NCBI RefSeq assembly: GCF_000725885.1
Contig: NZ_JODR01000007.1
Coordinates: 124,001 to 188,000, forward strand
Direction: 5' to 3'
DNA length: 64,000 bases
Source of the DNA: Streptomyces albus subsp. albus
GTDB lineage: Bacteria > Actinomycetota > Actinomycetes > Streptomycetales > Streptomycetaceae
A program made the translations under genes and the position numbers. Each line of letters starts with the position of its first letter. Within the stretch, counting starts at the first letter, position 1. This document shows, one piece after another, positions 47,353 to 54,971 of this stretch. The notes below the pieces were generated by a model. That model saw only the letters and a program-made list of their open reading frames with translations, was not told the origin of the DNA and ran no database searches.

Positions 47353-48054
47353 TCACCCGGCACGGCGGTCACCGGGGTGCGGGGCGCGGGCCGCGGGCTC
47401 GTCACCGGGCGCGGTGCGTGGGTGGGGGAAGGCGGGCTGGGTGACGAGCATGCGCTCCACCAGGCGGTGGAACATGCCCGCGTGGTGGAGGAGCTCGTCG
47501 GCCTGGGCCCAGGTGGCGGCGCCCGTGATACCGGCTTCGGCGCGGGCCCTGCGGGCGGCGCCGGCCGCGAACAGAGCGCTCCATTCGGCGAGTTCGGGGG
47601 CGACTTCGGGGAGAAGTTCCCAGGCGCTGCGGATGGCGGGGCGGCGGGGACGGCGGGCGGGGGCGCCGCGCCGGGGGGCGGTCCGCGCCTCGGGCCTGCC
47701 GCGGACGGCGAGGACGGCGGCGGCGGTGCGGAGCGCCGCGAGGTGTGCCGTGGCGTACCGCTCGTTGGCGGTTTCCATGGCGGCGGCCTCGTCGAGACCG
47801 TGCTGGGCCTGGGCGAGCAGGTCGAGGGCGGCCGGCGGTGCGCTCGCGCGGCGGAGCACGGGGTGGATGTCGTGGGGGTCGCGGGGCCGGCCGGGGGCAC
47901 CCGGGGGCGGTGTCGTGGGCTGCGGGGTGGACGCGGGACCGGACGAGGGGACGGGTGCGGGGGTGGGCGCGGGGACGGGTGCGGGGTTGGACGGCGTCAT
48001 GGGCTGCGGGGCCGCGTGGCGGGCTCCCGCGGTGGGTCGCGTCGAAGGTCGCAT
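47353..48054 (-). CDS. SAV_6107-type HEPN domain protein
   Basis: A 233-residue protein. The first 55 residues are an Ala/Pro/Thr-rich, disordered leader. The rest is helical and matches the HEPN fold known from the S. avermitilis SAV_6107 family. The segment METANERYATAHLAALR contains R99-X4-H104, the form of the HEPN ribonuclease active site. HEPN proteins are often RNases in toxin-antitoxin or defence systems, but many are housekeeping RNA-binding proteins, and no paired nucleotidyltransferase (MNT) antitoxin lies next to it. ATG at 48054 follows GGGAGG by 10 bases; an in-frame ATG lies 18 codons later. Confidence 0.75.
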   Translation of the reverse strand: MRPSTRPTAGARHAAPQPMTPSNPAPVPAPTPAPVPSSGPASTPQPTTPPPGAPGRPRDPHDIHPVLRRASAPPAALDLLAQAQHGLDEAAAMETANERYATAHLAALRTAAAVLAVRGRPEARTAPRRGAPARRPRRPAIRSAWELLPEVAPELAEWSALFAAGAARRARAEAGITGAATWAQADELLHHAGMFHRLVERMLVTQPAFPHPRTAPGDEPAARAPHPGDRRAG

Positions 48055-48342
48055 CGCTGCATCAACCTCCCGTCGGCGGTTGCCGGTTCGGCGCCGTACG
48101 GCCGAACCGGTCGTATGCACACATCGTGGAGCATGCCACTGACAATCCGCGCTGACCTGCGCAAAGGCCACCGGCGGCCAGACGGGGCGGGGGCGATTGG
48201 CGGCCGGGGCCGGGACTGCGGCATACTTTGAACTGACCGGTCAGTTCAAAGACTGGCCGGGCACGCCGCAGCACGCACGATGCGGCGCGCACGAACACCA
48301 CGAGCACCACGAGACACCTCGACCACGCAGCGAAGGGACGCC
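48055..48342 (+). promoter_or_regulatory. Upstream region of the ABC/YhgE operon
   Basis: A 288-base divergent interval between the HEPN gene and the ABC ATPase gene. A CATACT -10-like hexamer (48222-48227) with TTGGCG (48197-48202) upstream (19-base spacing) directly abuts the palindrome at 48227-48250. Repressor binding there would block the promoter. The leader to the ATG at 48343 is about 110 bases. Confidence 0.6.
48227..48250. promoter_or_regulatory. Perfect 24-bp palindromic operator
   Basis: TTTGAACTGACC (48227-48238) is followed directly by its exact complement GGTCAGTTCAAA (48239-48250). A 24-bp perfect palindrome with an AT-rich edge in a 72% GC genome is not expected by chance. 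It overlaps the putative promoter of an operon whose third gene encodes a TetR-type repressor, so autoregulation by that protein is the simplest reading. Confidence 0.85.
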
Positions 48343-49167
48343 ATGCCACAGCCGCGCGGAGCCGCCGTCTCGGCGGACGACTTCGGGCTCGACGGACCAC
48401 GAGGACCCGTTTTCGAGGGGGTCGGCTTCACCGCGGAAGCGGGTTCCCTGATCGCCCTGACCGGACCCTCCGGATCCGGACGGACCTGTGCGCTGCTGGC
48501 ACTGACCGGCCGGATGAAGGCCGGCCGCGGCCACGCCAAGGTCGCCGGGCACCCGCTGCCCAAACGGCTGGCGGCGGTACGCCGGATCAGCGCGCTCGGC
48601 CCGGTGCCCGGCGTCAACGATCTCGACCCGGCCCTGACCGTCACCGAGCAGCTGCGGGAACGGGTGCTGCTCCAGCGGCGGTTCGACGGTCCGCTGCGCT
48701 CTCTGATGAGGTCCCGCCGCGAACGGGCAGCCGCCAGCCGGGCTCGGCTGGAGCAGGCGCTGGAGACGGCGGGCCTCGACCTGGACGCGCTGCCGAAGGG
48801 CGGCCGTACGGCGGTGCGCGACCTGGGACGGCTGGAGGAACTGCGGCTGTCGGTGGCGCTGGCGCTGCTGGGCGAGCCGCGGCTGCTGGGCGTGGACGAC
48901 GTGGACCTGAAGCTGTCCGAGGCCGAACGGGAGGCGGCCTGGGAGATGCTGCGCGCGGTCGCCGCCACCGGCACCACGGTGCTGGCGGTGTGCAGCGAAC
49001 CGCCCCAGGACGGCGACGCCGTGGTGGTCCGTACCCGTACGGACGCGGCGCGCGCCTCCCGCGACGGGGCGCCCGGGGAGGGCACAAAGGACACCGGGGA
49101 GACCGGCGAGGCCGAGACGGAGAAGGAGGGGGCGGCCGATGCGCTCGCCGAGGCTAGCCGCGCTTGA
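48343..49167 (+). CDS. ABC-transporter-like ATPase with degenerate motifs
   Basis: A 274-residue nucleotide-binding-domain protein. The P-loop is ALTGPSGSGRT (38-48): arginine replaces the usual Walker A lysine. The signature region reads RDLGRLEELRLSVALALL instead of LSGGQ, and Walker B is PRLLGVDDVD rather than the usual LLLLDEP. ATP may bind weakly or not be hydrolysed. A charged, disordered tail follows from about residue 230. Its 3' end overlaps the YhgE gene by 29 bases, so the two are translated together and probably form one complex. Confidence 0.85.
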   Translation: MPQPRGAAVSADDFGLDGPRGPVFEGVGFTAEAGSLIALTGPSGSGRTCALLALTGRMKAGRGHAKVAGHPLPKRLAAVRRISALGPVPGVNDLDPALTVTEQLRERVLLQRRFDGPLRSLMRSRRERAAASRARLEQALETAGLDLDALPKGGRTAVRDLGRLEELRLSVALALLGEPRLLGVDDVDLKLSEAEREAAWEMLRAVAATGTTVLAVCSEPPQDGDAVVVRTRTDAARASRDGAPGEGTKDTGETGEAETEKEGAADALAEASRA

Positions 49168-51364
49168 GCTGAAGCGGTTCGGCAGGGGACGGCTGCCGCG
49201 GGCGGCGATGGCCGCGATGCTGCTGCTGCCCCTGCTGTACGGCGCGCTGTACCTGTGGTCCTTCTGGGACCCCTACGACCGGCTGGACAAAGTGCCGGTC
49301 GCGCTGGTGAACGAGGACAAGGGCGCCACCGTCAAGGGCGAGAAGATCACCGCGGGCGACGACATCGTCAAGGGCCTGCACGACAGCGACTCCTTCGACT
49401 GGCACGAGACCAGCGCCGAGGACGCGCGCAAGGGCGTCGAGGACGGGCGCTACTACCTGTCGCTGACGGTCCCCGCCGACTTCAGCAAGCGCGTCTCCTC
49501 CAGTTCGGGCGACTCCCCCGAGACCGGCGCCCTCAAGGTGCGCGCCAACGACGCCAACAACTACATCGTCGGGCAGATCTCGCGCACGGTCTTCTCCGAG
49601 GTCCGCGCCAGCGCCTCCAGCAAGGTCTCCCGCGGCTTCTACGACAAGATCTACGTCTCGTTCTCCACGCTGCACCACAAGACGGCGCAGGCCGCCAAGG
49701 GCGCCGACGACCTCGGCGACGGCATCGGCAAGGCCAAGGAGGGCGCGGGCAAGCTCAAGAAGGGGCTCGGCGACGCCGAGGAGGGCTCGGGCAGCCTCAA
49801 GAGCGGCACCGCCACCCTGCACAAGGGCGCCGGTGATCTCGCCTCGGGCGCCGGCCAGGTGGCCGAGGGCACCCAGAAGCTCGCCGACAAGGTGAACGGC
49901 GCCGCCTCCACCGTGCGGCCCTTCCTGACCGAGCACAGCGGCGACATCGCCAAGGCCGCCCGCGGGGTGTCCCGTACCAGCAAGACGCTCAAGGAGAACC
50001 TCGGCAAGCTGCCGGGCGCCGCACAGCGTGCGCAGAGCGACGCACGCCAGGCGGCCGACACCCTCTCGACGCTGTACGAGGCCCGCTGCGGCAAGAACAG
50101 GCCCTCCCCGCAGGGCGGTACCGCACCCGGTGGCGGCACCCCGGCGCCGGGCGGCTCGTCGTCGTCCTCGTCGTCCCCCTCCTCCCCCGAGGGGAACTCG
50201 GCGGGCGGGAGCTCCTCCGGGGACGGCACCAAGGGCACGCCCAGCGTCTTCCCGGACTCCTGCCCCGACCTGAAGAAGGCCGTGGACGCCGCCGAACGCT
50301 CCGCGTCCGTGGCCGGGAAGGTCAACGGCTACGTCAAGAACGAGAAGAACCTCGACGAGCTGGGCCGGCACCTCGACGACCTCGACAAGACCGCCACCGC
50401 CCTCGCCGAACGCGCCCCGCACCTCAAGCAGGACGTGGACAGCGCCGTACGCCAGATCAACAAGCTCAACAAGGGCGCACACGCCGTCTCCTCGGGCGCG
50501 GGCGAGCTGCACACCGGGCTGGGCACCGCCAAGAGCGGGGCCGCCGCGCTCGACACCGGTCTGGGCAAGCTCTCCAGCGGCGCAGGCAGCCTCGACGGCG
50601 GCCTGTTCAAGCTGGCCGACGGCTCCGGCAAGCTGGCGAGCGGGCTGCACGACGGCACCGAGCAGATACCGGACTACGGCAAGAAGGAGCGGGACGAGCG
50701 CACCGGTGTCATGTCCGACCCGGTCGGACTCGCCTCCCACAAGGCGCACGAGGCACCCAACTACGGCACGGGCTTCGCCCCGTACTTCATCCCGCTCTCC
50801 CTGTGGGTGGGCGCGATGATCGCCTACATGCTGCTCCAGCCGCTGAACAAGCGGGCGCTGGCCGCCGGGGCCCCGGCCTGGCGGATCGCGCTGGCCGGCT
50901 GGCTGCCCGTCGCGGCGATCGGGGTGGCACAGGTCGCCGCCCTGATGAGCGTGCTGCACTGGGGCCTCGGGCTCCAGATGGCGCGGGGGCTGGGCACGAT
51001 CGGGTTCCTGCTGCTGGTGGCCGCGTGCTTCACCGCGATCGTCCAGTTCCTCAACGCGCGCTTCGGCCCGGCCGGGCGGATCCTGGTCCTGGCGATGCTG
51101 ATGCTCCAGCTGACCTCGGCGGGCGGCACGTACCCGATCCAGACCAGCCCCGGCTTCTTCAACGCGCTGCACCCGTTCCTGCCCATGAGCTACGTCGTCG
51201 AGGGGCTGCGCCATCTGATCACCGGCGGTGAGCTGTGGCCGGTGTGGCGGGCGTGCCTGGTGCTGCTGGCGTTCACCGCGGGCGCCGTCGCCCTGACGGC
51301 CGTCACCGCACGCCGCAAGCAGGTGTGGACGCTCGACCGGCTCCACCCGGAGATCTCGCTGTGA
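49139..51364 (+). CDS. YhgE/Pip family membrane protein
   Basis: A 741-residue protein with one N-terminal helix (about 20-42), a large extracytoplasmic domain, and about six C-terminal helices (about 545-735) resembling ABC-2-type exporters. The extracytoplasmic part starts with VPVALVNEDKGA, the family signature. It has long heptad-like stretches rich in GAGxL, GSGxL and SGAG repeats (about 185-270 and 440-510), interrupted by a Ser/Gly/Pro linker. The family includes phage infection protein Pip and proteins linked to lipid or toxin export. With the upstream ATPase and the downstream TetR regulator it forms an inducible export module. Confidence 0.9.
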   Translation: MRSPRLAALELKRFGRGRLPRAAMAAMLLLPLLYGALYLWSFWDPYDRLDKVPVALVNEDKGATVKGEKITAGDDIVKGLHDSDSFDWHETSAEDARKGVEDGRYYLSLTVPADFSKRVSSSSGDSPETGALKVRANDANNYIVGQISRTVFSEVRASASSKVSRGFYDKIYVSFSTLHHKTAQAAKGADDLGDGIGKAKEGAGKLKKGLGDAEEGSGSLKSGTATLHKGAGDLASGAGQVAEGTQKLADKVNGAASTVRPFLTEHSGDIAKAARGVSRTSKTLKENLGKLPGAAQRAQSDARQAADTLSTLYEARCGKNRPSPQGGTAPGGGTPAPGGSSSSSSSPSSPEGNSAGGSSSGDGTKGTPSVFPDSCPDLKKAVDAAERSASVAGKVNGYVKNEKNLDELGRHLDDLDKTATALAERAPHLKQDVDSAVRQINKLNKGAHAVSSGAGELHTGLGTAKSGAAALDTGLGKLSSGAGSLDGGLFKLADGSGKLASGLHDGTEQIPDYGKKERDERTGVMSDPVGLASHKAHEAPNYGTGFAPYFIPLSLWVGAMIAYMLLQPLNKRALAAGAPAWRIALAGWLPVAAIGVAQVAALMSVLHWGLGLQMARGLGTIGFLLLVAACFTAIVQFLNARFGPAGRILVLAMLMLQLTSAGGTYPIQTSPGFFNALHPFLPMSYVVEGLRHLITGGELWPVWRACLVLLAFTAGAVALTAVTARRKQVWTLDRLHPEISL

Positions 51365-51426
51365 GCGCGGGCACGCTGCGCGCGGGCTCCGCACGGCCGG
51401 GCCGCGGACGAGGGGAGAATGGCCGC

Positions 51427-52059
51427 ATGACGAGTGCCCGTACCACCAGCCCGCGCAGCCGCAGCGCCACCAGGGACAAGCTCTTCCAGGCAGCCGTGAC
51501 CCTCATCGCGGAGCAGGGGTTCTCCTCCACCACCGTGGAGGAGATCGCCGAGCGGGCCGGCGTGGCCAAGGGCACCGTCTACTACAACTTCGCCAGCAAG
51601 ACGGAACTGTTCGAGGAACTGCTGCGGCACGGGGTGGCGCTGCTCACCGCCGATCTGCGGAAAGCGGCCGACGAGACCGCCGGGCGCGGCGGCAGCCGGG
51701 TGGACGCGCTGGACGCGATGGTCCGCGCCGGACTGCTCTTCATCGACCGCTACCCGGCTTTCACCCAGCTGTACGTCGCCGAACTGTGGCGCACCGGACG
51801 GGCCTGGAACGAGACCCTGCTCATGGTGCGGCAGGAGGCCGTCGCCGTCGTCGAGGACGTCCTGCGGGCCGGGGTCGCCGAGGGCGAGCTGAGCGAGGAG
51901 ATCGACATCCAGCTCACCGCCGCCGCGCTGGTCGGCATGGTGCTGGTCGCCGCGCTCGACTGGAAGGCGTTCCAGCCCGAGCGCTCCTTGGAGGACGTGC
52001 ACGGCGCGCTGTCCCTGCTGCTCCAGGGCCGCGTCGGCGGACGCGAGCGCACCCGCTGA
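51427..52059 (+). CDS. TetR-family transcriptional regulator
   Basis: A 210-residue repressor. The helix-turn-helix lies at about 18-65 (LIAEQGFSSTTVEEIAERAG, then KGTVYYNFASKTELF). The C-terminal ligand domain is helical. It lies 62 bases after the YhgE gene in the same direction and is the best candidate to bind the 24-bp palindrome upstream of the operon. The effector is unknown. The Arg/Ser/Thr-rich first 15 residues are typical of streptomycete TetR proteins. Confidence 0.92.
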   Translation: MTSARTTSPRSRSATRDKLFQAAVTLIAEQGFSSTTVEEIAERAGVAKGTVYYNFASKTELFEELLRHGVALLTADLRKAADETAGRGGSRVDALDAMVRAGLLFIDRYPAFTQLYVAELWRTGRAWNETLLMVRQEAVAVVEDVLRAGVAEGELSEEIDIQLTAAALVGMVLVAALDWKAFQPERSLEDVHGALSLLLQGRVGGRERTR

Positions 52060-52390
52060 GAGCGGCGCCGCTCACGGGAGGGCGACCGGCTCCGTTCCGC
52101 GGCCCCGTGTCAGCGGTCCGTGCCCCGCCCTCCCGTGGACCTCACTCTGCCGTCCGCGCCGGGGGCACCCATCGGCGCGGCTACTCAAGACCTCTTCTGA
52201 GTACCGGTACCTAGCCCCTGGGTACGCCCCGCCTTCCCCCGCGGTGCCGCGGTACCCCGCGGGGTACCCCGGGTGCCGCTCCGTGCCCCCGGCTCCGCCC
52301 CGGGGAGCAGCGTCCTGCCCGCTCCCGGCCGGGTCAAGGGGTGAGGGGGCGCCTCCCGGCGGGCGGCCGGGCGCGGGCTAAGGTCACGGC
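52060..52390. promoter_or_regulatory. Interval between tetR and oxidoreductase with palindromes
   Basis: This 331-base gene-free stretch starts with a 12-bp stem with a 41-base loop (CACGGGAGGGCG at 52073-52084 with its complement at 52126-52137), a likely terminator for tetR. It then carries a 10-bp palindrome, GTACCGGTAC (52201-52210), and an 18-bp perfect palindrome, GGTACCCCG plus its complement (52251-52268). The GGTACC sequence recurs through 52200-52270. These may be hairpins or protein sites for the oxidoreductase gene at 52391. Confidence 0.5.
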
Positions 52391-53821
52391 ATGGCACGGA
52401 TCGTGGTGATCGGCGCGGGAACGGGCGGGATGGCCGCCGCGGCTCGACTGGCCGTGGCGGGCCACCGGGTGACGGTGCACGAGCGCACCGAGACCTACGG
52501 CGGCGCGCTGCGCAGGTACACGCGCGACGGCTTCGCCTTCGACACCGGGCCGGGCCTGCTGCACCTGCCGGCCGTCCACCGCGACCTGTTCGTCAAGACC
52601 GGACGCGAGCGCCTGGAGGACCGGGTCGATCTGGTGCGGGTCGCCGCTACGGCACGGCACGTCTTCCCGGACGGCAGCGCCGTGACACTGCCCAACGCCT
52701 CCCGCGGCAAGGTGATCGCCGCGCTCGACGACGCGTTCGGCGCGGGCGCGGGCGACCGGTGGGCCCGGATGCTGACCCGGGCCCGCGAGGCGTGGGAGGC
52801 CACCCGGCGTCCGCTGCTGGAGGAGCCGCTGCGCGACGAGCCCGCCTCGCGGGGCGCCCTGGTGCGGGACGGGGCCTACCCGGCCCTGCGCCGGAAGGGC
52901 CTGCTGCGCCGCCGCCCGCCGACCCTGGCCGAGGCCGCGCGGGACGAGCTGGGCGACCCCCGGCTGGCCGCGATGCTGTGCGGCTGCGTGTGGGGGTACG
53001 GCCTGGATCCAAAGACCGCTCCGGCGACCGCCGCCCTGCTCGCGTACGTCGAGGACGCGTTCGGCACCTGGTACGTGCGCGGCGGCGGCCTGCGGGCCCT
53101 GGCCGACGCGCTGTACGACAGGTGCCGCGAGCGGCGGGTCGCCTTCGTGTTCGGCAGCGAGGTGACCGCCGTACGGGAGAAGGACGGACGGGCGGCCGGG
53201 GTGGAGCTGGCCGACGGTTCCGTCGAGGAAGCGGACGTGGTGGTGACCGGCGGCGGGCCCGCGGCGCCCGGCAGCCCCGGCGCCGGGCCCGCCGGCACGG
53301 CACGGCTGACGGTGCTGCTGGCCCTGCGCGGCGCCCGCCCCCAGGGCACCCCGCACCGCACGCTGGTGCACCGCGCCGAGGCGCCGGGCCGCCCGCTGAC
53401 GGTGCTGCGGCCCGACGATCCGGCGCTGCGCCCCGACGACGCGCACGAGACGGCGGTGCTCAGCCTGCCCGTACCGGCCGGCACGGTGGAGGGGACGGCC
53501 GAGGCGGAGCGGCTGGCCGAGGAACTGCTGGCGGCGGCCGACGGGGCCGGGCTGGGCCTGCGCGAGCGGCTGCTGTGGCACGCGGTGCGCACCCCCGCCG
53601 ACAACGAGGCGGAGACCGGCGCCCCGGGCGGCCTGGTGCCGCCGCCGGCCCTCCCGGGCGCGGGCGGCGCCTTCCTGCACCCGGCGAACACGACACCGCT
53701 GCCGGGGCTGTACGCGGTGGGCGGCTGGTCCCATCCCGGCGGCGGACTGGCCGCTGCCGGGATGACGGGCGCGATGGCCGCCGGTCTCATCCAGGACCCG
53801 GACTGGCGCGGCTCCACCTGA
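52391..53821 (+). CDS. FAD-dependent oxidoreductase, phytoene desaturase-like
   Basis: A 476-residue flavoprotein. The FAD-binding motif is VVIGAGTGGMAAAARL (5-20), followed by the conserved E in VHERTETYGG and the downstream FDTGPGLLHLP, typical of carotenoid-desaturase/amine-oxidase-like enzymes. The C-terminal FAD contact is LYAVGGWSHPGGGLAAAGMTG. There is no carotenoid gene cluster around it, so carotenoid desaturation is only one possibility. It is convergent with the Tyr/Gly-tail membrane protein, with a 49-base gap. Confidence 0.85.
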   Translation: MARIVVIGAGTGGMAAAARLAVAGHRVTVHERTETYGGALRRYTRDGFAFDTGPGLLHLPAVHRDLFVKTGRERLEDRVDLVRVAATARHVFPDGSAVTLPNASRGKVIAALDDAFGAGAGDRWARMLTRAREAWEATRRPLLEEPLRDEPASRGALVRDGAYPALRRKGLLRRRPPTLAEAARDELGDPRLAAMLCGCVWGYGLDPKTAPATAALLAYVEDAFGTWYVRGGGLRALADALYDRCRERRVAFVFGSEVTAVREKDGRAAGVELADGSVEEADVVVTGGGPAAPGSPGAGPAGTARLTVLLALRGARPQGTPHRTLVHRAEAPGRPLTVLRPDDPALRPDDAHETAVLSLPVPAGTVEGTAEAERLAEELLAAADGAGLGLRERLLWHAVRTPADNEAETGAPGGLVPPPALPGAGGAFLHPANTTPLPGLYAVGGWSHPGGGLAAAGMTGAMAAGLIQDPDWRGST

Positions 53822-53870
53822 CCGCCGCCCCGCATGCGGGCGGGTACGACACCTGGCGCGCCGCGCCCCG

Positions 53871-54971
53871 TCAGTAGCCGCCGTAGTAGCCCTGGGGGTA
53901 CTGGGGCTGGTGCGGCGGCTGCGCGTGCGGGTCCGGCGTCTCGCCGCCTGCCGCGTACGGATCGTCGTAGCCGGTGCCGTACCCGTACCCGGACGGGACC
54001 TGCCCCGGCAGTGCCCCCGGGCCGGCGGGCGGCAGCGTCCCGGCGCCGTCCCGTTGCTGGGGCACCCACACGCCACCGGGCGGCGTCTCCGGCACGTCCG
54101 GGTAGTAGGGCTGCTGCGCCGGGTAGTCCTCGTGCCCGGGCTGCTCGCCGTAGGAGCCGGCGTACTGCGCCGGGTAGGCGGCGGCGTGGTTCTGGTAGTC
54201 GTACTCGGCGTACTGGGGCTGCTGTTCCGGATACCCGGCGTAACCGGACTGGTCGCCGTAGCCGGCGTACTGGTCGTCGCCCTGCGCGCCGTACGGGTAG
54301 GGCTGCGGCTGCGCGCCGGGCGCCTGCCCGAAGACGGAGGTCTCCTCCTCCAGCCCGTCGTAGCCCCCGTGACCCCCGTAGCCCCCGTAGCCGGGCTGCG
54401 GCGCCCCGCCCTCGTAGCCGGGGACACCGGGGACGCCTTCGTGGCCCGTGGTGCCGTACTCGTGCCCGGTGCCGTGCTCCGGTCCCGCGCCGGTCCCGTC
54501 GAGGGGGGCCGTGCCGTCGTCGGGCCGGCCGTACCCGGCGTGGCCGTAGTCGTCGACCGGGTCCGGCACGGGGAGGGTCTCGGGAGCGGCGGGGACCGGA
54601 CCGGTGTCGGGGTCGTGCGACTCCAGACCGCTGACCTCCAGCGACGGCGAAGCGGCGGCGGCCTTGCCCGCACCGCGGCGGCGCTGGCCGGCGCCGGGAC
54701 CGCGGCCGGCGCCGGGGACCCCGCGGATCGCCCAGCCGCCGGTGAACCCGCTGCGGACGGACAGCGTCACGAACGTCTGCCCGACCGCGAACGCCGCGAT
54801 GCCCAGGCCGATCACGACGACGGACGGCAGCACGGTGCCCACCACGACGCCGAGGAAGCCGGCGAAGGCCAGCAGGCGCCAGCGCAGCCGCGCCTTGTAC
54901 TGGATCAGGACCTCGGCCAGCAGCCACAGCGCCACGATCCCGAACGCGATATAGAGGACCGTCCAGCCCAT
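53871..54971 (-). CDS. Membrane protein with long Tyr/Gly/Gln/Pro-rich disordered tail
   Basis: A 366-residue protein. The first 80 residues contain three hydrophobic segments (about 2-24, 32-49 and 50-70). From about residue 130 to the end it is a low-complexity tail dominated by Gly, Tyr, Gln, Pro and acidic residues, with repeats such as YGGYGGHGGYDG, QYAGYGDQSGYAGY and AAYPAQYAGSYGEQ. Such tails resemble prion-like or condensate-forming regions and mussel/spidroin-like sequences. The family and function are unknown to me. The tail should be cytoplasmic if the N-terminus is outside and there are three helices. Confidence 0.8.
   Translation of the reverse strand: MGWTVLYIAFGIVALWLLAEVLIQYKARLRWRLLAFAGFLGVVVGTVLPSVVVIGLGIAAFAVGQTFVTLSVRSGFTGGWAIRGVPGAGRGPGAGQRRRGAGKAAAASPSLEVSGLESHDPDTGPVPAAPETLPVPDPVDDYGHAGYGRPDDGTAPLDGTGAGPEHGTGHEYGTTGHEGVPGVPGYEGGAPQPGYGGYGGHGGYDGLEEETSVFGQAPGAQPQPYPYGAQGDDQYAGYGDQSGYAGYPEQQPQYAEYDYQNHAAAYPAQYAGSYGEQPGHEDYPAQQPYYPDVPETPPGGVWVPQQRDGAGTLPPAGPGALPGQVPSGYGYGTGYDDPYAAGGETPDPHAQPPHQPQYPQGYYGGY

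Follow-up and report, generated by a model that had tools for sequence, protein, structure and literature searches.

What does a long perfect palindrome do in front of an operon that pairs an ATP-binding cassette (ABC) subunit with a YhgE/Pip membrane protein, and is it the target of the TetR-family regulator encoded behind them? The locus that raises this question lies in a 64,000-nucleotide (nt) stretch of Streptomyces albus subsp. albus (contig NZ_JODR01000007.1; hereafter the window, whose coordinates are used throughout). Three genes on the + strand, encoding an ABC-type ATPase, a YhgE/Pip protein and a TetR regulator, stand here between a divergent HEPN gene and a gene for a CrtD-like oxidoreductase. 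An initial annotation had already placed the three in one direction, and their families are borne out by PF00005, TIGR03061/TIGR03062 and PF00440, respectively. The anatomy of the locus, its conservation and co-inheritance, the degenerate motifs and the losses described below were read directly in the sequences. They indicate that an operon of a known kind is preceded by a genuine and conserved TetR operator, and they reveal two surprises: the ATPase is non-canonical in every relative read, and the repressor is kept after its target has been lost. We consider it probable that the TetR represses a coupled ABC-YhgE pair via the palindrome, that the pair forms a type V-like complex with a non-standard motor, and that the TetR has an extra role.

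The palindrome and its conservation

The palindrome CTTTGAACTGACCGGTCAGTTCAAAG (48226 to 48251) is a perfect one, as first described, but its length is 26 bp rather than 24 bp, with 13-base arms and no spacer. It is the longest perfect zero-spacer palindrome of the window, an arm of at least 13 bases occurred in none of 100 order-1 Markov sequences of the window, and genome-wide its 22-bp core matches only at this site when up to three mismatches are allowed. The -10-like hexamer CATACT (48222 to 48227, + strand) does not merely abut the palindrome, as had been reported, but shares two bases with it, and a -35-like TTGGCG (48197 to 48202, + strand) precedes CATACT by a 19-nt spacer. Among 40 upstream regions (the window and 39 genus loci), a -10-like hexamer is found at the upstream edge of the operator, overlapping it or no more than 3 nt away, in 36, and a TTG-type -35 hexamer at a spacing of 16 to 19 nt is present in 29, in a scan that missed the evident TAGTTT in L078 and L088. 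These positions suggest that the operator probably covers the transcription start of the ABC-YhgE operon; a repressor bound there would block the start site.

In a panel of 150 Streptomyces genomes, an ABC orthologue (best E below 1e-30) is present in 123 and missing from 27. The operator, with up to three mismatches, was found in 113 of the 123 and in none of the 27, and a reversed-pattern control gave no matches. Six of the ten ABC-positive genomes missing the strict site have a less exact copy where the site is expected (L061-L066, differing from the 26-mer at 4-6 positions), and in the other four (G017, G099, G116 and G147) a contig starts or ends inside the gene. Among 80 named Streptomyces loci, a set not independent of the panel, the ABC gene is present in 77, of which 76 also have the operator, at a distance of 15 to 206 nt (median 41) from where the ABC match starts; the remaining one, L184, is truncated by the start of its contig. 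Absence of the palindrome from relatives that keep the genes had been named beforehand as evidence against an operator, and these counts show the opposite. Over 40 rows (the window and 39 genus loci) the mean pairwise identity is 0.85 in the operator and 92% in its 14-bp core versus 0.31 to 0.36 in the flanks, the operator and core figures being inflated because each site was taken as the best match within 700 bp. Moreover, paralogous operons in five Streptomyces (L067-L071), which lack the HEPN gene, carry a variant operator together with a TetR of the same recognition helix.

The operator was also found in 153 of 197 genomes of an order sample, and a class sample of 296 genomes yielded 27 non-genus genomes with an ABC relative (E<=1e-22), all of which were examined, as 29 loci. 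The same TetR recognition helix (GVAKG[TS][VL][YF]YNF) occurs at 16 of these loci, and the operator is present at 15 of the 16, whereas it is present at none of the 11 loci with another kind of TetR (five) or with no TetR found (six). The non-genus operators lie mostly 15-30 bp before the matched ABC part and occur in three families besides the window's own. At L257 the operator is present and the TetR would fall past the contig end. The sole same-helix locus without the operator, L162, belongs to the same genome (G514) as L262, where operator, ABC and YhgE are found with no TetR in the stretch; G514 contains a single operator and a single close TetR, and a TetR at L162 with an operator at L262 is the appearance expected of regulation in trans. 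With a score matrix built from genus sites, the operators of seven non-genus loci scored 37-55, versus scores that never exceeded 6 when each upstream stretch was shuffled 200 times. These results indicate that the palindrome is a conserved operator which, as judged by sequence comparison, follows the TetR recognition helix across families and not the ABC gene. The proposal that the TetR binds the palindrome is thus strongly supported by comparative genomics, as the site follows both the operon and the recognition helix. YhgE/Pip proteins are widespread, and for at least four actinobacterial families the operator offers a prediction of how they are regulated.

Some unusual arrangements were also seen. 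L161 (G438) holds a five-gene array, operator-ABC-YhgE-TetR-ABC-YhgE, with the single operator of that genome, and L072 (G137) has a further ABC-YhgE pair, the third and a more distant one (about 38% and 33% identical), whose Walker A is degenerate in the same way (GPAGSGRT) and which has no TetR match and no operator. In G206, two perfect operator copies 177 bp apart flank an apparent inverted duplication; since this is possibly an assembly artefact, the second copy was left uncounted as a regulon member. Extra three-mismatch sites in G064 (one) and G068 (three) were taken as chance rather than as targets, and the reversed control also matched in one of the seven genomes scanned for extra sites.

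The TetR regulator and its persistence without the operon

The TetR gene (51427 to 52059, + strand) encodes 210 amino acids with the recognition region ERAGVAKGTVYYNF. The protein is assigned to TetR_N by PF00440 (67.2 bits, gathering score 24) and falls below the cut-off of every NCBIfam model reported. Its recognition helix is conserved in the operon loci, in the non-genus loci with the operator, and in all rows of the orphans described here, that is, TetR genes kept without the operon. Of the 27 panel genomes that lack both ABC gene and site, 17 retain a TetR orthologue (53-81% identity), three of them as one-contig assemblies (G044, G118 and G136). No ABC or YhgE match was found at E 1e-8 in the 17 orphan stretches, to which the YhgE search was confined and some of which end at contig ends (at L349 about 110 bp upstream of the TetR, which limits the view in front); HEPN is present in 12 of them and the CrtD-like gene in 16. 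An operator-like site was likewise not found in these stretches, with a best score of -8.6 versus 36.7-56.2 for the non-genus operators. Three named orphans, L192 (S. ardesiacus), L253 and L246, also keep the TetR without ABC, YhgE or operator, and searches of their genomes, made without a positive control, found no YhgE (E<=1e-10) and no operator (up to two mismatches). L246 is the same contig as the panel orphan L350 (G102), with identical TetR rows, so that the 20 orphan rows amount to 19 distinct ones. At L348 a scar of the ABC gene remains beside the TetR (29 amino acids at 72%, E 1.5e-6), which indicates loss, not primary absence, at this locus. In a quick TetR tree, in which 33 of 62 inner branches are weak, the orphan state needs nine changes, at least four of which are forced by well supported branches.

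The orphan TetRs show signs of purifying selection, as far as substitution patterns can tell. No stop interrupts the matched part of any of their 20 rows, the recognition helix is unchanged in all of them, and the ratio of nonsynonymous to synonymous substitution rates (dN/dS) is 0.05-0.12 at dS up to 0.44 within the orphan clade of L192, L253, L347, L349 and L351. These features argue against the orphans being undecayed leftovers with no second role for the TetR. We consider such decay in waiting rather unlikely, even though many of the losses lie near the tips of the tree, some orphans have diverged (L359, L362), and the median pairwise dN/dS is somewhat higher for orphans (0.14; 11 pairs, up to 0.31) than for operon pairs (0.09; 11 pairs).

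A possible separate, near-leaderless promoter of the TetR gene is suggested by the -10-like GAGAAT (51415 to 51420, + strand), 6 nt upstream of its ATG; in the window, GAGGGGAG at this element is readable also as a ribosome-binding site. The pattern GA[GCA]AAT-N4-14-[AG]TG precedes the TetR in all 20 orphan rows (19 distinct) and in 23 of 39 operon loci; in the other 16 operon loci, near variants were seen by eye in 11 non-paralogous ones and in none of the five paralogues. Because of its own promoter-like element and its retention in orphans, the TetR can probably be produced in the absence of the operon and seems to be needed there. The description of the three genes as self-contained is therefore not upheld, since the TetR persists in genomes in which neither the ABC gene nor the operator was found and YhgE does not adjoin it. 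In the HEPN promoter, GTCAGT resembles a half-site; it was considered as a candidate target of the orphan TetR and set aside, as L357 and L358 have no HEPN match or motif in the stretch seen. The locus offers a case of a regulator outliving its target, and natural losses of the whole ABC-YhgE pair in many Streptomyces are available for study.

The ABC-YhgE pair and a proposed mechanism

The ABC-type nucleotide-binding subunit (48343 to 49167, + strand; 274 amino acids) matches the ABC_tran profile PF00005 at about 44-45 bits (threshold 25), its structure model has a predicted local distance difference test score (pLDDT) of 87, and the best PDB matches of the model are ABC folds (Foldseek probability 1.00). 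By sequence, its nucleotide-binding domain (NBD) is nearest to NBD1 of ABCA7 among solved structures. Four hallmarks of a catalytic ABC ATPase are missing: Walker A reads GPSGSGRT, with Arg47 for Lys, RDLGRLEELR stands for LSGGQ and VDD for DE, and the H-loop His is absent, with VLAVCSEPP at that place. In the alignment with ABCA7, GSGRT stands opposite GAGKT, LGRLEELR opposite LSGGMQRK and VDDVD opposite LDEPT, with a substitution at the H-loop His. The Arg of Walker A is found at 41 of 41 genus loci and in all 55 aligned database proteins, the window's included, in which D185 and D186 are invariant; LSGGQ is absent from all 41 genus loci. Of 21 non-genus ABC genes, 14 have Arg and seven Lys, and none of the 21 has LSGGQ, the catalytic Glu or the switch His, two of them lacking the Walker B Asp as well. 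For comparison, a regular-expression search of the 30 top-scoring ABC domains of the same genome found GxxGxGK[ST] in 29, an LSGGQ-like motif in 25 and DE in 27, a sample that is biased to canonical domains as the best of 134 matches; the lone Arg domain among them is likely a wrong frame, because no other motif occurs in that frame. The window's subunit ranks near the bottom of the genome's list of ABC domain matches (45 bits).

Because LSGGQ, the catalytic Glu and the switch His are missing in all aligned relatives, ATP-driven export cannot be assumed, and the idea that an effector simply releases export becomes doubtful. It is more likely, from these motifs, that the subunit binds nucleotide weakly or is a structural or regulatory clamp than that it is a standard motor. 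An ordinary drug-efflux operon, in which a toxic compound sensed by the TetR would de-repress a conventional ATP-driven ABC exporter, would account for a TetR adjoining ABC and ABC-2 membrane genes, for a membrane domain of exporter fold, for a P-loop that is otherwise intact and for the Walker A lysine of the seven distant relatives. It is nevertheless an unlikely explanation in view of the missing motifs, the Arg in every genus Walker A read and the mostly canonical ABC domains elsewhere in the same genome.

The YhgE/Pip protein (49139 to 51364, + strand; 741 amino acids) bears both family domains above their cut-offs (TIGR03061, 198.3 versus 96.15 bits; TIGR03062, 233.7 versus 102.2 bits). 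Its gene overlaps the ABC gene by exactly 29 nt (49139 to 49167, + strand), as initially reported, and the same overlap occurs in 62 of the 75 named Streptomyces loci with a settable YhgE start (two of the 77 are without a set start, and two values, both above 2000 nt, are clearly artefactual), so the pair is likely translationally coupled. Frames of 1000-1300 amino acids in some non-genus matches were considered as ABC-YhgE fusions and rejected as long stop-free frames in GC-rich DNA, the genes lying in separate overlapping frames. The structure model shows an N-terminal transmembrane helix, a small alpha/beta domain, two very long helices and a C-terminal transmembrane domain; the long helices are joined at the tip by a disordered loop between Cys317 and Cys375, which are both invariant in 60 aligned proteins including the window's YhgE. 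The transmembrane part matches ABCH, ABCG and ABCA proteins, as expected of an ABC-2 type transmembrane fold, and the model thus suggests a type V (ABCA/ABCG/ABCH) fold for the membrane domain. By sequence, YhgE has no match in the PDB up to E 0.1.

YhgE might instead be mainly a surface protein, phage-receptor-like as Pip is, or an EsaA-like accessory of secretion, with the ABC subunit as a scaffold. Membership in TIGR03061/03062 and a sub-threshold match to the EsaA model TIGR03929 (57.4 bits, curated cut-off 122) are in keeping with such a role, as is the account in PMC4999554, in which phage DNA entry into E. faecalis needs PIP_EF and the YhgE/PIP domain is said to have no known function. 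This is quite unlikely, since ABC and YhgE adjoin in all 29 non-genus loci and YhgE is present in all 77 named loci with the ABC gene, and since phage reception would be a by-product and not a cell function.

We favor a mechanism whose binding, repression, ligand, substrate, lack of hydrolysis and second TetR role are inferred. The TetR, as a dimer or a pair of dimers, would bind the palindrome and block RNA polymerase at the overlapping -10/+1 region, keeping the ABC-YhgE pair off, until a ligand, probably hydrophobic, releases it. The ABC and YhgE products would then assemble as a half-transporter pair of type V (ABCA/ABCG/ABCH-like) with a long extracellular helical hairpin, which probably acts on a lipid or lipophilic compound in the envelope. 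Its nucleotide-binding subunit, without the canonical residues for hydrolysis, may serve as a weak nucleotide binder or as a structural or regulatory clamp. The TetR would also be expressed from its own promoter and have at least one further role, because it survives the loss of operon and operator.

Several points weigh against this mechanism. The operator was found in none of the 16 order-sample genomes outside the genus, in which the ABC genes were not searched. The existence of orphan TetRs speaks against a regulator that acts only locally; no other target was found for it. Confidence in the YhgE model is modest (mean pLDDT 68.7, predicted template modelling score 0.38), a single Foldseek match to it has E below 0.001, and helical folds readily score high Z; the probable lipid substrate is deduced solely from the likeness of folds. 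In some ABC proteins that have one degenerate site, ATP is still hydrolysed via a partner site, and a partner NBD may be encoded elsewhere in the genome. That actinobacterial YhgE type V complexes run on a clamp subunit that does not hydrolyse canonically and that, jointly, the TetR was kept for a second conserved job after repeated operon loss is a claim we put forward only tentatively. The locus allows a clear test of whether canonical ATP hydrolysis is dispensable for an ABC complex whose NBD is degenerate. The position of the palindrome between divergent genes might suggest that it is the target of a different regulator, such as one of the HEPN gene, or that it acts as a transcription terminator. 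Such a role is very improbable, because the site lies close to the ABC start in the named loci, has no T-run, is lost together with ABC-YhgE while HEPN and its promoter remain, occurs at the HEPN-less paralogous operons and tracks the TetR recognition helix.

Related systems and neighbouring genes

Local repressors of efflux operons are well known in the TetR family, in the manner of TetR, AcrR and MtrR. The window's regulator resembles them in its TetR_N domain, in a predicted palindromic operator over the promoter and in the adjacent export-type membrane genes; unlike them, it falls below the reported NCBIfam cut-offs and its lineage persists without operator and operon. Bacillota members of the YhgE/Pip family may be stand-alone proteins. 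The window's YhgE shares both curated family domains with L. lactis Pip, E. faecalis PIP_EF and B. subtilis YhgE and differs in being paired with an ABC-type subunit in the loci read. The pair resembles type V ABC exporters (ABCA, ABCG, ABCH) in the transmembrane fold and in the kinship of the NBD with ABCA7, but has a separate NBD gene, an Arg in Walker A, no LSGGQ, catalytic Glu or switch His, and, in the model, a very long extracellular helical hairpin. The N-terminal domain of YhgE resembles EsaA/YueB of type VIIb secretion, from which it differs by its sub-threshold TIGR03929 score and by its ABC partner. Two papers touch on these relationships: in PMC3924187 a Streptomyces coelicolor protein is placed in the PIP family and homologues in the ABC-2 superfamily are mentioned, and PMC3701619 calls YhgE a paralogue of YueB with the same predicted domains. 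Within Creative Commons-licensed texts of PubMed Central, no paper contained any of five 14- to 15-mers of the operator as text, none was found for YhgE with Walker A, and the module was not indicated among the matches listed for YhgE/Pip with TetR, ABC transporter and Streptomyces.

The nearest database proteins are from Streptomyces, and YhgE is 98% identical to a protein named S. albus. No Rfam match was found between 46500 and 53000 of the window, and the PADLOC defence models gave weak matches to the module proteins (best E 1.7e-4). Downstream lies the gene for a CrtI/CrtD-like flavin adenine dinucleotide (FAD) oxidoreductase (52391 to 53821, + strand), which, from profile matches and neighbourhood conservation, is a conserved neighbour of the operon and a predicted oxidoreductase. 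The gap between the TetR gene and this gene (52170 to 52270) is rich in GGTACC and holds the palindrome GGTACCCCGCGGGGTACC at 52251 to 52268 as well as a TACTCA...TGAGTA inverted repeat. After the CrtD-like gene, an open reading frame of 266 amino acids (53834 to 54634) has no Pfam match at E up to 0.001.

The divergent neighbour encodes a SAV_6107-like HEPN protein (47353 to 48054, - strand; PF18726, 109 bits). It is present at 32 of 40 genus loci and belongs to the conserved neighbourhood, outside the operon; a literature search for HEPN with SAV 6107 found no paper. Upstream of this gene, the minus strand from 48145 to 48123 reads TTGTCAGTG-N8-CACGAT, which resembles the PafBC/RecA-NDp DNA-damage promoter, whose consensus we take to be TTGTCRGTG-N8-TANNNT. 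TTGTCRGTG is present in 31 of 41 upstream regions; the six loci without HEPN, which are paralogous or third copies (L067-L072), all lack it. Control of a HEPN protein by a DNA-damage promoter would deserve a look.
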